From the NCBI RefSeq assembly GCF_026914265.1, contig NC_069126.1, positions 37,079,725 to 37,143,724 of the forward strand: DNA of 64,000 nt, read 5' to 3'. The translations under genes and the position numbers were made by a program. A model generated the notes under the pieces. That model was given only the letters and a program-made list of their open reading frames with translations. It ran no database searches and was not told where the DNA came from. Shown one piece after another: positions 12,169 to 63,840 of the stretch (within the stretch, counting starts at the first letter, position 1; each line of letters opens with the position of its first letter). Origin of the DNA: Mya arenaria (lineage: Eukaryota; Mollusca; Bivalvia; Myida; Myidae).

Positions 12169-13378
12169 CATACATGTGATAATTTCTTGGGTCGATTCCG
12201 GGACACTCGTCGTAATGTCCGCATGCCCCCCCGGATTTTTTTTAAATGGGGAACGTCTGTGTTGCATTCTATAGCATATCTGGGGCTATTTTAGTCATTT
12301 TTAACGTCGGGAAAATGTACCTATTGTGACTGCCAAAACGTATTTTTTACTTGACATGGTTGTTTTTTTCTGCATTTTCTTGAAAAAATAAAACCACCAG
12401 ATATTTTCCCAGGCTTTAAATTAAGTGCTAACCAGGAGGATATGCAGTCTACTTTCGGTTTCATCAAAACAGGAAATAAACAACTATACGGGCACCTGTT
12501 TTCCCGCGCTTTTGAGAACATGCGTTACAAAATATTTATTTTTTCATCACATTTAAAACGTTTGCAATTTATGACACACAATATTTTCCAGACGATAAAG
12601 AAGATTTTCCAGTCGATGAGCTTTTTTCCGTTTGGAGATGCATATAATTTTGATAGAGACGTGTCAACATTCGGCTGTATAAAGGGATCACGTGACTTAC
12701 CATGGTCACGTGATTAAAGCACTCTATATAACCACCTGTAAACCCCATATCGTCAGTTTTATTTCGGCGTAATAATACGTAAAAATTCACACGATAGTTC
12801 GGAAAAAAGGTCAAAACACTAAAATTCCATATACACGCGTAAGTTGTTTAAAGTATAACGACGTATCGACTTTGAAATTTGAAAGGAATATGGGATGTTT
12901 TCCGTGTTTTAATTTTGGTTTTTTACTCATTTTGTCACTTTCTTTGAACTTACCTTCATGCTCGTTTGTTGGTAAAATGTGTGAAAAATATCAATTCATC
13001 AATTAAAAGCTATCATTCATAAGACCAAACAAATCCATATGAAAACAATGAATTAGTATACAAGAACCCTCCCCCACTCGTTAAGCACAACAATAGGCCG
13101 ATAGATCAATTATCGGGTGATTGACGATGACCTCGACGACACACGTACCAATTAACGGATCAGTGTCAACATGTCCTGTGTTTTACGACCAGTGTCCCGG
13201 ACAGGCAAAATAGCTGACTTACATTGGTAAAATTAAGATAATCGATTCCGATTCCGATATTTTTTTTTCGTTTTTTTTTTTATGACTTTCCGGGACAAAC
13301 ATGCACCCTCCGTGACTCCGTGACAGAGATACGATTTCCGGGACAATCCCGGACGTCCGGGACGTTATCACATGTATG
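12169..13378. mobile_element. 1.21-kb non-autonomous TIR element, copy 1
   Basis: Perfect 14-bp terminal inverted repeats CATACATGTGATAA and TTATCACATGTATG bound the element. The flanks carry a direct repeat (ATGGTACTAG on both sides, partly overlapping the ends), consistent with a target-site duplication of about 7-8 bp. GTCCCGG/CCGGGAC words cluster beneath both ends. Inside are a 10-bp E-box palindrome pair (12687-12714) and a TATATAA (12725-12731). Frames of 66-91 codons have no recognisable domain. Copy 2 at 55923-57133 appears to differ only by one T in a T run, so transposition or copying was very recent. The superfamily is unclear; 8-bp duplications would suit hAT. Confidence 0.85.
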
Positions 13379-55922: not shown

Positions 55923-57133
55923 CATACATGTGATAATTTCTTGGGTCGATTCCGGGACACTCGTCGTAATGTCCGCATGCCCCCCCGGATTTTTTTTAAA
56001 TGGGGAACGTCTGTGTTGCATTCTATAGCATATCTGGGGCTATTTTAGTCATTTTTAACGTCGGGAAAATGTACCTATTGTGACTGCCAAAACGTATTTT
56101 TTACTTGACATGGTTGTTTTTTTCTGCATTTTCTTGAAAAAATAAAACCACCAGATATTTTCCCAGGCTTTAAATTAAGTGCTAACCAGGAGGATATGCA
56201 GTCTACTTTCGGTTTCATCAAAACAGGAAATAAACAACTATACGGGCACCTGTTTTCCCGCGCTTTTGAGAACATGCGTTACAAAATATTTATTTTTTCA
56301 TCACATTTAAAACGTTTGCAATTTATGACACACAATATTTTCCAGACGATAAAGAAGATTTTCCAGTCGATGAGCTTTTTTCCGTTTGGAGATGCATATA
56401 ATTTTGATAGAGACGTGTCAACATTCGGCTGTATAAAGGGATCACGTGACTTACCATGGTCACGTGATTAAAGCACTCTATATAACCACCTGTAAACCCC
56501 ATATCGTCAGTTTTATTTCGGCGTAATAATACGTAAAAATTCACACGATAGTTCGGAAAAAAGGTCAAAACACTAAAATTCCATATACACGCGTAAGTTG
56601 TTTAAAGTATAACGACGTATCGACTTTGAAATTTGAAAGGAATATGGGATGTTTTCCGTGTTTTAATTTTGGTTTTTTACTCATTTTGTCACTTTCTTTG
56701 AACTTACCTTCATGCTCGTTTGTTGGTAAAATGTGTGAAAAATATCAATTCATCAATTAAAAGCTATCATTCATAAGACCAAACAAATCCATATGAAAAC
56801 AATGAATTAGTATACAAGAACCCTCCCCCACTCGTTAAGCACAACAATAGGCCGATAGATCAATTATCGGGTGATTGACGATGACCTCGACGACACACGT
56901 ACCAATTAACGGATCAGTGTCAACATGTCCTGTGTTTTACGACCAGTGTCCCGGACAGGCAAAATAGCTGACTTACATTGGTAAAATTAAGATAATCGAT
57001 TCCGATTCCGATATTTTTTTTTCGTTTTTTTTTTTTATGACTTTCCGGGACAAACATGCACCCTCCGTGACTCCGTGACAGAGATACGATTTCCGGGACA
57101 ATCCCGGACGTCCGGGACGTTATCACATGTATG
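55923..57133. mobile_element. 1.21-kb non-autonomous TIR element, copy 2
   Basis: Same orientation and ends as copy 1 at 12169-13378, displaced by 43754 bases. The only difference I found is one extra T in the right-hand T run. The flanks carry the direct repeat ATGGTCAAACA, different from copy 1's ATGGTACTAG. This shows two independent insertions and not one duplicated block. The internal E-box pair is at 56441-56468 and TATATAA at 56479-56485. Confidence 0.87.
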
Positions 57134-58722: not shown

Positions 58723-61428
58723 TCAAACAGTTTTGGGTGCTGATGGTGCCCTCTTTGGGGCAATTTGGGCGGCTATTCTGTCAAGATCACGGCGGCCCTG
58801 GGAGGTCAGGCGGCGACCACTGAAAGTATACAAGCACTTAAGTTTACAAAATACTTCAAACCAACAACTATCAAAGCATATATTTAAAATCCAGAATATC
58901 CCCGAAAGAGCTGCACTGATGAAGGAAACAAAGTTACATAAAATATCTACCATTCCACAGTTACATAAAAGTAATGTATACCTCTCAGTCACAATGTACA
59001 ACATAATGCTGCCATTAACCTAGTTGACAACTTTGATTCAATAAACATTGAAGATTAATAAGATTAATAAATACATGTTAGCATGTTGTTCTTGTCAACA
59101 TTTTCAAACTAAAATAACCTTCACAAATATAATGTTCCTTACAATTTGCGTAAAAAAACACTCATCTTGACTGTGCTACCTACCCGTTGGGATCCTTCTC
59201 GACAATTTTGAGCCCCTCAAGACTCTGGAGGAGTCTGCGGGAGATTGAGCCGTTAGCCTTGCAGAAGTGGCTGGGGGCTGTTCCGCGCCTACGGCGACCT
59301 TTAATCAACAAATCAAGATAGTCATATCATTTAACTATCACAAAAGCATATGATTCAGTTGATAAATGGTCACACTTAATTCATGTCAAGGAGATCAAGA
59401 GATTAACACAATTTTGATGTTTTAAAAACTGAAATCATTGCCAAATTTGATAACTGGATTTGTTTCAAATATTTCAATGACTTCAATATTGAGCTATAGT
59501 CAACAAATCAAGATGGTAAAATCATTAAACTATCGCATAAGCATATCATTCAATTGGTAAATGGTCACATTAAATTCATGTAAACAGAATAGCCTAAACA
59601 TGCCAGTGTCAGAATTAAATCAGTTATAGAAGCTCTCACTTGGTAAATCAAGTCTGATGTATCATCATTTGGCATGCCTGTTATTTGCAAGGGTATATAA
59701 GCTCACAAAGTTTCAGTCACTATTCTTTTACAAGTCTTGTACAAGCAAACCTTCCAGGTTTAACTTCGACCATTGAGAAACTTTAAATAGGACTATTAAG
59801 TATTTTGTTTTTATTTACATGTATAATAAAATGGTCTTAAATCAAGTACATGTATTCATCAACATAAAATAACAAGATAAATCTTTGGAAGCCATAACAT
59901 TCCAGTATCAGAATCAGTTATTTTGCTCTCACTGAATCAAATCGAGACTGATTTTTTCATCACCTGGTATGCTTGCTGAAAACATTGTGTAGGGATGCAG
60001 CTTAAAATGTTTTGTTGAATCACATTCATCTGCATATTCCATTATACATCTACATGTACTATTAACAGCCCTACTTTTGAGATGTGTTCTAATCAGACTC
60101 ATTAAATCAGTATTTGCTCTCACTATAAATAGAGATCAAGAATATCATCATTTAGAACACTAACAATAGAAAAAATACAATAATCACTATTGAAAGGCTA
60201 CAATATTGAGACAGATCAACACTGCACAAGACTTCTTTGGAATGTGACCTTAACCTTTGTTAAAATATAAAGAATACTATGTTTTGCATCCATGAGAGAC
60301 GAAGAGTTGGAAAACTCAATATTAGTATGATTATTCTCTGTTAAAGTTTGGTTTCTTTTTTACGTCATATAATAAAGAATGCCACTGCATGATAAAAATT
60401 ATTTACAGTTTCATAGCAATCCCCACACCATAAAGTTCCAATTTAGTTACTTAAACACATATTGTAATGCAGTTTGCTTCAAAAAGAAGTAGACTTTTTA
60501 AGTTAGAAGTCTGTAACTTCTCGTCATAAAGAAAATACCATAGAATTATACTGTTTTTCAGTCAAGAATATTAAATTTAATCTTTTAGTTGAAGCCAGTG
60601 TCAGAATTAAATCAGTTTTAGAAGCTCTCACTTGGTAAATCAAGTCTGATGTATCATCATCTGGCATCCCTGCAGTTTGTCAGGGATTCTTTTGCACGAA
60701 ATTGTTTTTACAATAACTCAATCAGGGGAATATAATGTTATATTATACCTCACATAAATGTGTCCCTTCTTTGTATATATAAACACGATCGGTCTGTATA
60801 TCACTGTATTTTGATGGAAATCCAGTTTTATGACGTCAGCGGTTGCTATTTTCACAACAGCGAAAAATTGTCGCAAGTAAACATTATTAGCTTTGTTCAA
60901 TAAAACACATTTAAATCGCTATAAAAATATTGAATGATAATAAAAAATGTTCGGTATATTATAAGAAATATAACACACCACTTCAGGTCATATGGCATTA
61001 TAAGGATTGGTCAGTCAGCCCCCGATGTGAATGGACCTCGGCTAACACCTCGGTCCATATACACTTTCGGGGGCTGACTGGCCGGTCCATATGTCATATG
61101 ACCCTCAGTGGTGTGTTATATTTCTTAAGTAGTTACAGTTACCAGACAACACCTATTTCACTGTCAACCCTGAAACATTTCTTCGTAAAAATTAAACTGC
61201 TTTTATTATTATTTAAACTAAAAGGCATGTGGCGCTATTGTTTGTTCAAGGCGAAACAGTTTACTTGTATTGTGTAACTTTCTTGGCAACATTCATGTCA
61301 GACTTTGAATGAATGAAAACAATAGTATTATACAAAATATATGGACAATAATATTTTTTTCAGAACAGGTTTTCCCATCCCAGGCCTAAAAAAATACATT
61401 TGATTTTGGTTACTTGACCTTACTCACA

Positions 61429-61459
<31 letters not shown>

Positions 61460-63840
61460 ATATATTTTATTTTTTAAGAGTATGTTATAATATGTAGTTT
61501 AAAACCTTTCAAGATTGATACAAAAGGTAACTTTAACATCATTCTCCAATGACAAGAATTAAGTTTTAATATAAAGCCTAATAATAAAAAACAACCACAA
61601 AAAAAGCCTACCAAACCTACCATTTTTTGAAAAAGGTGTAACCCTTAGCTAACTATTTTACCCCTTCTAAGCCTGTTCAATTGACAGCACATAACAGTAC
61701 CTCATGCCAGTGTCAGAATTAAATCAGTTATAGAAGCTCTCACTTGGTAAATCAAGTCTGATGTATCATCATTTGGCATGCCTGTTATTTGCAAGGGTAT
61801 ATAAGCTCACAAAGTTTCAGTCACTATTCTTTTGCAAGTCTTGTACAAGCAAACCTTCCAGGTTTAACTTCGACCATTGAGAAACTTTAAATAGGACTAT
61901 TAAGTATTTTGTTTTTATTTACATGTATAATAAAATGGTCTTAAATCAAGTACATGCATTCATCAACATAAAATAACAAGATAAATCTTTGGAAGCCATA
62001 ACATTCCAGTATCAGAATCAGTTATTTTGCTCTCACTGAATCAAATCAAGACTGATTTTTTCATCACCTGGTATGCTTGCTGAAAACATTGTGTAGGGAT
62101 GCAGCTTAAAATGTTTTGTTGAATCACATTCATCTGCATATTCCATTATACATCTACATGTACTATTAACAGCCCTACTTTTGAGATGTGTTCTAATCAG
62201 ACTCATTAAATCAGTATTTGCTCTCACTATAAATAGAGATCAAGAATATCATCATTTAGAACACTTTGAAAGTACAATAACTTACAGGGAAAGGTGACAT
62301 CATCGAGACAGAACACCGCCAAAACAACTTAGGAATGTGACTATATTGCCAAATTCACAGTTCACTCAACTTTTGATGTCTGCTGCATTATAAAGAGTAC
62401 AAAGAATGAAAACAAAGAATACCTATTATATATATTAAAGTTTTGCATCCAAGAGTGACCAAGTGGGAATACTCAATATATGATTGTGTTCCCAGTGGGT
62501 CTGGCTTCTATTTCGTAAAGTAATAAGTATGCCACTGAATGATATCAACACTTTCATTGCAATCCCAACACGTTAAACTTAAATTACTAATTTCAGAATG
62601 AATCCTGATTTCAAGTGAGAGTTTTTATACTTTCTTTTACACACAATTGTTCCTACAATCACTTAATCACAGCCTCCACATGCCAGTGTCAGAATTAAAT
62701 CAGTTAAAATTAATCTCACTTTGTAAATCAAGACCAATCTATCATCATCTAGCATATTCGCAGGAGCTGTTGAGCATACATCATTGTATCGAGGAGGTTA
62801 AAATTGGCAGACACTTATTCTGCAGGACGAACAGGCTCTTATATGGAATCAAGTTCTCAATGTGTTCTTATCAGACTCATTAAATCAGTTTTAGCTCTCA
62901 GTAAGCATAGAGATCAAACATATCATCATTTAGAACACATTTAGAACAGTTAGGTTTTTTTCTTTTCATGAATTTAGGGAAGGGGCCTGGAGCCTATGAA
63001 CAGATTTTTTGTTGCATTTAGTAAAAACCCAAAGAAAAATGTCTATAATGTGCATGTTTAACTTATATTTGCAACTTCATCTGATTATCTCTACTTTAAT
63101 ATGTTTGAACTCCTGCTAGATAGTACTGCTCACTTTAGTGTAATCACTTAACTTTATGCTAGTTGAATGGCCAAAAGAACATGTAACTGACTTTTTTTCT
63201 TGAGACGCCTCTAATTGAGAGACATTTTTCAATGGTTTAATATAAGCAAATTACACAGCAAAATAGATAGAATACAGGATGTCATAAAAAAAATAATTTC
63301 ACACTGCTTTGTCTTCCCTTTACAGTTCAGTAATCTTCTCTGCTGGTCAAGGGACTCAGTCTATAGGATAATTATTTTAATAAATCAAATTTAACAACCA
63401 TGTGCATTTGCGTTACTTCCCCAATGTAAGATGCTCAATTTTTGAAGCAATGTAATATTTTGATTTTTTTTTTCATTTGTAGGTGAAAAAACTATGCTTA
63501 TTTCTGAATATAGTTAAATAAAAGGTAAATAAACTGCACATTCCACGTTCATTTCAAACATTTAATAATTACTATTTGGGCATCATATCTAATAATAGAT
63601 TGTTTTAAGTATTGAGATGGGGATTTGATTTATTGGTCTCTGTATCAGAAAGTTTCTGGCTCAATCCCACTCACAAATTCAACGATTTGCACCAGAAGCT
63701 TATCATTAAGAAACAGAAACTGTTTTCAACCACCTGCTGATGAACTAAATCTGAGTTCATTGAATATTTACCTCCATAGATTTTCTCAAAAGATCCAATA
63801 CCGGCTGGTGATCTGATGTACAGATGTCTGCAGATTGAGG
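58723..63840 (-). CDS. RPS19: Ribosomal protein S19, last three coding exons (partial)
   Basis: Exons 63772-63840, 59184-59298 and 58723-58819 join in phase and encode ASICRHLYIRSPAGIGSFEK, then IYGGRRRGTAPSHFC, ending in GGRRLTSQGRRDLDRIAAQI and a short tail. This matches the C-terminal two-thirds of eukaryotic RPS19 (human [38 protein letters not shown]). RPS19 is a small-subunit protein needed for pre-18S rRNA maturation. The N-terminal exons lie right of the window or in the last 160 bases, where I see none. The 4.47-kb intron between the first two visible exons hosts nine snoRNA genes, so snoRNA output should follow RPS19 transcription and splicing. The partial status is due to the window edge only. 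Confidence 0.95.
59307..59582. repeat. Local repeat pair (about 75 bp) in the RPS19 intron
   Basis: AATCAACAAATCAAGATAGT onward (59303-59382) and ATCAAGATGGTAAAATCATT onward (59506-59582) are diverged copies sharing GATAAATGGTCACA and AATTCATGT. No C or D box was found in either, so they are not counted as snoRNAs. Confidence 0.6.
59600..59675 (-). ncRNA. Box C/D snoRNA, register-2 type, copy 1
   Basis: On the RPS19 sense strand. C box ATGATGA at 59668-59662 and D box CTGA at 59612-59609 are closed by the perfect stem ATGCCA/TGGCAT (7 bp with the next pair). The guide upstream of the D box is complementary to ATTAAATCAGTTAT of 18S rRNA (14 nt). The fifth base from the D box pairs with A102 in human numbering, counted from memory. 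GTGAGAG is a possible C' box. It should be processed from the spliced intron to direct 2'-O-methylation. Identical in sequence to 61704-61779. Confidence 0.87.
59900..59970 (-). ncRNA. Box C/D snoRNA, register-3 type, copy 1
   Basis: C box GTGATGA at 59963-59957, D box CTGA at 59911-59908, and a short stem CCAG/CTGG immediately outside. The guide covers AATCAGTTAT of 18S rRNA, only 10 nt, with A107 (human numbering) at the fifth position. The shorter stem and guide make this the weakest of the three types. A near-identical copy lies at 62004-62074. Confidence 0.7.
60084..60160 (-). ncRNA. SNORD57: Box C/D snoRNA, SNORD57-like, copy 1
   Basis: C box ATGATGA at 60151-60145, D box CTGA at 60096-60093, and a perfect 9-bp stem GTGTTCTAA/TTAGAACAC. 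The guide is complementary to CTCATTAAATCAGT of 18S rRNA (14 nt). The fifth base from the D box falls on A99, the site guided by SNORD57 in vertebrates, whose guide (ACTGATTTAATGAG, then CTGA) is the same. In vertebrates the host is NOP56; here it is RPS19. Confidence 0.92.
60594..60665 (-). ncRNA. Box C/D snoRNA, register-2 type, copy 2
   Basis: C box ATGATGA at 60660-60654, D box CTGA at 60604-60601, stem GCCAG/CTGGC (5 bp). The guide matches ATTAAATCAGTT of 18S (12 nt). It is close to the copies at 59.6 and 61.7 kb but stands alone, outside the duplicated cassette. Confidence 0.83.
60960..61127. mobile_element. Foldback element (about 75-bp arms) in the RPS19 intron
   Basis: ATAAGAAATATAACACACCA at the left is mirrored by TGGTGTGTTATATTTCTTAA at the right. 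Further inside, TCATATG and GTCAGTCAGCCCCCGA pair with their inverses, and ACCTCGG marks the centre. The whole is one imperfect hairpin between two snoRNA groups. Probably a MITE. Confidence 0.8.
61704..61779 (-). ncRNA. Box C/D snoRNA, register-2 type, copy 3
   Basis: C box ATGATGA at 61772-61766, D box CTGA at 61716-61713, stem ATGCCA/TGGCAT. Identical to 59600-59675 and part of the 563-bp duplicated cassette. Guide ATTAAATCAGTTAT (14 nt). Confidence 0.87.
62004..62074 (-). ncRNA. Box C/D snoRNA, register-3 type, copy 2
   Basis: C box GTGATGA at 62067-62061, D box CTGA at 62015-62012, stem CCAG/CTGG. It differs from the copy at 59900-59970 by one base, outside the boxes and the guide. Guide AATCAGTTAT (10 nt). 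Confidence 0.7.
62188..62264 (-). ncRNA. SNORD57: Box C/D snoRNA, SNORD57-like, copy 2
   Basis: C box ATGATGA at 62255-62249, D box CTGA at 62200-62197, 9-bp stem GTGTTCTAA/TTAGAACAC. Identical to 60084-60160. The guide is complementary to CTCATTAAATCAGT, with A99 at the fifth position. Confidence 0.92.
62680..62755 (-). ncRNA. Box C/D snoRNA, register-2 type, copy 4 (diverged)
   Basis: C box ATGATGA at 62748-62742, D box CTGA at 62692-62689. The stem ATGC/GCAT is followed by one mismatch. The guide covers ATTAAATCAGTTA (13 nt). The middle region has diverged from the other copies while boxes and guide remain intact, suggesting selection. Confidence 0.8.
62861..62939 (-). ncRNA. SNORD57: Box C/D snoRNA, SNORD57-like, copy 3
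   Basis: C box ATGATGA at 62929-62923, D box CTGA at 62874-62871. The stem TGTGTTCT/AGAACACA (8 bp) has one mismatch next to the boxes. The guide is complementary to CTCATTAAATCAGTT of 18S (15 nt, the longest in the set) with A99 at the fifth position. It is nearest the 5' end of the host intron as transcribed. Confidence 0.9.
62940..63771. other. Remainder of the RPS19 intron
   Basis: No further snoRNA boxes, repeats or exons were recognised in this AT-rich segment up to the exon at 63772. The last 160 bases of the window (63841-64000) are intron upstream of that exon. Confidence 0.5.

Follow-up and report, generated by a model that had tools for sequence, protein, structure and literature searches.

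A SNORD57 family duplicated in cis within the ribosomal protein gene RPS19 of Mya arenaria is the best explanation for an array of box C/D snoRNA-like units found there; the family appears to have kept the dosage of the guide for A99 of 18S rRNA and to have produced further guides that are shifted in register. Judged from the sequence, a probability of about 0.58 is assigned to this reading. The window is the whole stretch of 64,000 nucleotides that was analyzed, C5:37079725-37143724 (contig NC_069126.1), in the animal's own genome (G000, 1.216 Gb, 18 contigs), and positions are those of the window unless a contig or locus is named. As the initial annotation had described, nine units occupy the minus strand, the sense strand of the host, at 59599-62941, all within one RPS19 intron of 4,473 bp. 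The units belong to three types, named T3, T1, and T2.

The host gene was identified from three minus-strand coding exons (63772-63840, 59184-59298, and 58723-58819), whose joined translation matches the Pfam family Ribosomal_S19e with E=9.2e-29. The exon upstream of the array (63772-63840) is bordered by the acceptor TTTCAG and the donor GTAAAT and reads on in frame into the two exons that follow. The exon downstream of the array (59184-59298) has the acceptor TTAAAG, the donor GTAGGT, in-frame joins, and an S19e match at C5:37138907-37139023, and the last coding exon (58723-58819) is joined in frame up to the stop. These exons set the borders of the host intron at 59299-63771 on the minus strand. 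Two exon matches to the S19e family were obtained in the own genome, and both belong to the RPS19 gene that carries the array. The initial annotation had called a ribosomal protein host with nine copies for one rRNA patch unusual. Ribosomal protein genes often serve as hosts; in fly S2 cells they are 73 of 239 (PMC13228274). In sponges, the last RPS19 intron is described as carrying a snoRNA that may target 28S (PMC3412847), so RPS19 as a snoRNA host is not new as such.

Several repeats were observed in the intron and elsewhere in the window. The 3' end of the host intron, with its acceptor AG, is duplicated on the minus strand (59296-59389 and 59491-59584; 94 bp, 84% identical), and the upstream copy is also AG-terminated and could serve as a decoy or an alternative splice site. 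A long imperfect palindrome resembling a foldback MITE (60962-61127; 172 aligned columns, 76%) lies between the units u5 and u6; once transcribed it would fold into a long hairpin, which might allow entry of an RNase III-type enzyme between units. Two plus-strand open frames of 120 codons with identical translation (12355-12717 and 56109-56471) lie 43.8 kb apart and probably belong to a repeat that was copied recently.

All nine units contain a C box RTGATGA, a D box CTGA, a closing stem, and a guide to 18S rRNA. Their order in the transcript, from u1 to u9, is T3, T1, T3, T2, T1, T1, T3, T2, T1, which equals the order 1, 2, 1, 3, 2, 2, 1, 3, 2 of the initial annotation. The units are all on the minus strand. 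The T3 units in the window are u1 (62860-62941; C box 62923-62929, D box 62871-62874), u3 (62186-62267; C box 62249-62255, D box 62197-62200), and u7 (60082-60163; C box 60145-60151, D box 60093-60096), the last being a recent copy of u3. The T1 units are u2 (62676-62756; C box 62742-62748, D box 62689-62692), which is an old divergent copy, u5 (61703-61782; C box 61766-61772, D box 61713-61716), u6 (60594-60672; C box 60654-60660, D box 60601-60604), and u9 (59599-59678; C box 59662-59668, D box 59609-59612), a recent copy of u5. The T2 units are u4 (62002-62077; C box 62061-62067, D box 62012-62015) and its recent copy u8 (59898-59973; C box 59957-59963, D box 59908-59911). In every one of the nine, the closing stem has 5-10 pairs, with G-U allowed and the offset free, the guide forms 10-15 uninterrupted Watson-Crick pairs with the 18S segment from D-1 or D-2 onward, and the boxes C and D are spaced by 56-60 nt (criterion 50-65 nt).

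A motif scan that combined a C box, a D box, a stem of at least 4 pairs, and a guide of at least 10 pairs returned nine units in the window and none in 100 dinucleotide shuffles of it. A chance origin of the nine-unit signal is rejected by this result. When the guide was relaxed to at least 8 pairs, the shuffles gave a mean of 0.01 and a maximum of 1. Without the guide condition, 11 candidate C boxes were found in the window versus a shuffle mean of 4.15 and a maximum of 13, which indicates that the guide makes the signal decisive. The terminal stem appeared as expected in the minimum-energy folds of five of six units; in the sixth, u6, the sequence cut lost one side of the stem. Single-strand folding was weak: the z-scores of the six units span -1.8 to +0.1, and two are below -1. 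A TGAGA core (AGTGAGAGC in most units) lies upstream of the guide in all ten units counted below and is kept across the three types. This core may be a C' box candidate; no matching D' box was evident in the ten units.

In C/D snoRNPs, fibrillarin is directed to the base that faces position D+5. By this rule, the predicted target is A99, the SNORD57 site, for T3, A102 for T1, and A107 for T2. The numbering is human, and the three positions were set on the human 18S sequence; the target basis comprises this human sequence, seven contaminant contigs picked by the same pattern, and two fragments of the own genome. The claim that all units are aimed at one 18S segment is thus right for the segment and requires revision for the target, which is predicted to be three different nucleotides. 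The registers differ because, beside the D box, T1 lacks GAG (3 nt) and T2 lacks 8 nt relative to T3; the 8 nt are derived from the register, the aligner placing part of the T2 gap elsewhere. A99 faces D+5 in three of the nine window units and in a tenth unit, u0, all of them T3, and in none of the four T1 or two T2 units. A single common target nucleotide is rejected by the differing registers.

The three types also differ in their pairing. The D-1 position is a G-U pair in T3, a mismatch in T1, and a Watson-Crick pair in T2. At the far end, the guides of T1 and T2 reach 18S 110-112 and those of T3 reach 109-110, and the nucleotides 103-109 are covered by the guides of all three types. The predicted duplex energies are -19.9 to -21.3 kcal/mol for T3, -13.5 to -18.1 for T1, and -13.3 for T2. 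When u0-u6 were compared with three rDNA contigs, 10-nt complementarity was confined to the guide to the 18S segment in all seven. A second target at D' is weakly rejected, with no other rDNA complementarity of at least 10 nt in u0-u6; the three contigs are, by eye, yeast-like contaminants, which makes this a weak test. The 18S pattern has two exact matches in the own genome, at L020:228-552 (C17) and in L021 near 290-385 (C5). In both fragments the segment A99-A107, by which they were selected, is exact and the neighbouring sequence is divergent; the C17 fragment gives a short partial Rfam SSU match, and the C5 fragment gives none at the gathering threshold. The 18S target patterns had no match in viral contigs.

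A relation to SNORD57 is supported for T3. The initial annotation had proposed a search with the Rfam SNORD57 covariance model (RF00274), and this search gave full-length matches to the T3 units of the window at 41.4 (u1), 36.8 (u3), and 36.8 bits (u7), with E from 2.3e-6 to 4.4e-5 and the same guide; all of these scores are below the gathering cut-off of 47 bits. With u0 (34.9 bits), an end-to-end match was found for all four T3 units, over a range of 34.9-41.4 bits. The T2 units scored 23.6 (u4) and 19.6 bits (u8), and one of the four T1 units (u6, 19.0 bits) was listed at E up to 10. A search of the window with Rfam at the gathering threshold gave no match. These results support T3 as homologues of SNORD57, by the guide and the end-to-end match, rather than as Rfam members. 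SNORD57 had been introduced as a single-copy passenger in vertebrates of NOP56, which is the same gene as NOL5A. This is borne out for chicken, where one 18S-A99 isoform is given in NOL5A intron 9, and yeast snR51 is listed as a functional homologue of U57/18S-A99 (PMC2653536).

The tenth unit, u0, is of type T3 and lies at C5:37143838-37143920, which is 114 bp outside the window and within the RPS19 intron that precedes the host intron. It sits between exon matches at L009:3708-3821 and 1492-1569, in a locus that extends 8.3 kb past the window, and has a closing stem of 5 pairs and a box spacing of 60 nt. A sequence model built from the units (R1) found ten distinct units in the window and L009, and further divergent units there are rejected, the next best score being 6.1 bits. 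The type tally in the RPS19 gene is 4 T3 : 4 T1 : 2 T2, with T2 counted within the window and L009. In DNA searches of the own genome, T3 and T1 had four matches each, every one within RPS19, which rejects dispersed copies of these two types. The pattern ACTGATTTAATGAGNCTGA, which is the exact A99 guide with the D box, had at least four matches in the 1.216 Gb, all in RPS19, and its reversed-pattern control had none. These results make RPS19 the only SNORD57 host found in the own genome, for guides that fit the exact pattern; a SNORD57 with an altered guide would be missed by it. The covariance search of the genome, in which 61 of 309881 candidates were scored, gave at least one match.

The duplication history is recorded in the divergence between the copies. 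The tract 61703-62265, with u3-u4-u5, differs from its minus-strand partner 59599-60161, with u7-u8-u9, at 3 of its 563 positions, counting the spacers. Identity falls to 51/71 just upstream of u3 and u7, and a stretch further upstream is 71% identical. From these values, two duplications are one reading; the other is an old tandem duplication within which a tract was recently converted. Because even the spacers are nearly identical, u7-u9 provide no evidence of constraint independent of u3-u5. The three types are distinguishable by sequence; of the recent copies, u8 differs from u4 by one base, and u7 and u9 are indistinguishable from u3 and u5. The older copies do. Between the old pairs u1/u3 and u2/u5, the C box, the 15-nt guide, and the D box are identical at 51 of 52 positions versus 49 of 67 in the body (Fisher p=1.1e-4), and the 60-nt flanks are identical at 65 of 240, about the level for unrelated A+T-rich sequence. 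For the T1 pair u2/u5 by itself, the guide and the boxes are 25/26 identical and the body 24/34; with u2/u6 as the sole pair, p=0.052. In a tree of eight units, T3 is separated from T1+T2 with 100% ultrafast bootstrap, and T2 falls within T1 at only 50%. T2 consists of two near-identical copies, with no old copy and a duplex of 10 bp, so its guide carries no sign of constraint. Selection on the boxes and guides between the old T3 copies and between the old T1 copies is thereby supported. Dosage, which had been offered as one of two options, is a possible aim of this selection. The two options of dosage or new guides may both apply, with four T3 for A99 and four T1 plus two T2 shifted.

A mechanism can be proposed along these lines. 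An ancestral unit would have been copied within RPS19, and u0, alone in the preceding intron, would likely represent the old one-per-intron state. The T3 copies (u0, u1, u3, and u7) would retain the A99 guide and with it the A99 dosage. In T1 (u2, u5, u6, and u9) and T2 (u4 and u8), the missing nucleotides would slide the D box along the 18S segment, so that fibrillarin would methylate A102 and A107. Once spliced out, the intron would release the units. End-trimming alone would halt at u1 and u9, and the internal units u2-u8 would therefore need endonucleolytic entry or stay joined; an intron that holds two snoRNAs can yield a sno-lncRNA when it is trimmed from its two ends (PMC11028025). In yeast, snR51 guides Am100, where methylation stands at 68% and is raised by a multicopy plasmid with the snR51 cluster (PMC3938493). 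This limitation by guide level makes a dosage effect at A99 plausible. The guides overlap on 18S 103-109 and cannot bind one pre-rRNA together, and the copy ratio could thus set the fraction of each mark. Taken furthest, this suggests a three-register system, in which mutually exclusive guides at the fixed gene proportions 4 T3 : 4 T1 : 2 T2 would place a 2'-O-methyl at A99, A102, or A107 of each 40S by competition. This extension is tentative and rather doubtful; if true, it would mean ribosome heterogeneity that is encoded in the genome.

Marks at A102 or A107 find no support in methylation maps of other organisms. Arabidopsis 18S has no Nm listed between C38 and U123 (PMC8053127), and in fly S2 cells the human 99-436 peaks are absent (PMC13228274). 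For planarian 18S the comparison covers the ten fully methylated sites, none of which falls within 28-755. Text matches to "Am99" in the planarian source are catalogue numbers and were rejected as a methylation site. No methylation at A102 or A107 was found in the literature search, in these three maps, or among known human sites, and the literature search on mollusc or bivalve snoRNAs returned nothing relevant.

In another reading, dosage is all that is kept: T3 makes A99, and the copies of types T1 and T2, whether expressed or degenerate, do not methylate A102 or A107, having drifted under relaxed constraint and been retained by tandem duplication and gene conversion. The complementarity to A102 and A107 is partly inherited from T3 and could be incidental, which would suit this reading, as would the unpaired D-1 of T1 and the fact that T2 is just two near-identical copies. 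Predicted Arabidopsis sites are also often unmethylated, which is put down to target interactions, lack of snoRNA expression, and the absence of boxes (PMC8053127). However, the T1 form predates the recent tract, its guide and boxes being far better kept between u2 and u5 than the body; T1+T2 are split from T3 with full bootstrap support; and the T1 guide extends to 18S 110-112, beyond the T3 end at 109-110. Dosage as the whole explanation is considered rather unlikely.

The same overlap of every guide on 18S 103-109 could instead reflect a role of T1 and T2 as chaperones or competitors, which would bind 18S 99-112 while the pre-rRNA folds, hiding or freeing A99 and so tuning its partial methylation. 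The homologous yeast site is indeed partial and guide-limited (PMC3938493), but all ten units retain intact C and D boxes and have the guide next to the D box, the arrangement of a methylation guide; such a role is improbable. Equally improbable is that most units are unprocessed from a crowded 4.5-kb intron, the array being a by-product of unequal crossing-over. The recent 563-bp tract with its 3 differences, spacers included, agrees with such neutral expansion, and one snoRNA per intron predominates in animals (PMC11028025); the boxes and guides are nevertheless kept in old copies whose flanks have diverged to 65/240.

If the SNORD57 family has indeed diversified within RPS19, the array may catch guide evolution in the act, in that one gene carries the canonical guide together with versions shifted by 3 nt and by 8 nt. 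The shifted guides sit at an rRNA site where guide dosage limits methylation in yeast, and whether they make new marks bears on the origin of rRNA modification sites and on ribosome heterogeneity. The one-per-intron processing rule is also put to the test by an intron with nine snoRNAs.

Nothing in the RPS19 array is categorically new. SNORD115 and SNORD116 have targets other than 18S rRNA. They are tandem C/D copies as here (PMC11028025), but those arrays are in an imprinted locus, whereas the RPS19 units face 18S rRNA within a ribosomal protein gene. Intronic snoRNA clusters of rice and Drosophila likewise hold several snoRNAs per intron (PMC2780460); compared with these clusters, the nine units here are relatives of one family facing one 18-nt rRNA segment. 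The cis-duplicated C/D paralogs of chicken (PMC2653536) and human (PMC8178906) are intragenic copies with guides kept, in which indels sometimes lead to new guide functions, but their copies sit in different host introns. Relative to SNORD57/U57 (RF00274; yeast snR51), T3 is alike in the A99 guide, the boxes, and the length; the host here is RPS19 rather than NOL5A/NOP56, T3 is present in four copies, and the T1 and T2 guides are shifted by 3 and 8 nt. Plant snoRNA isoforms are said, going by the title of a 2001 report by Barneche, to have arisen by duplication with new predicted methylation sites. In contrast to those isoforms, three registers overlap here on one segment within one gene. In this comparison, which covers the rice and Drosophila clusters by secondary description, what looks unusual is the number of units in one intron together with the three registers on one segment.
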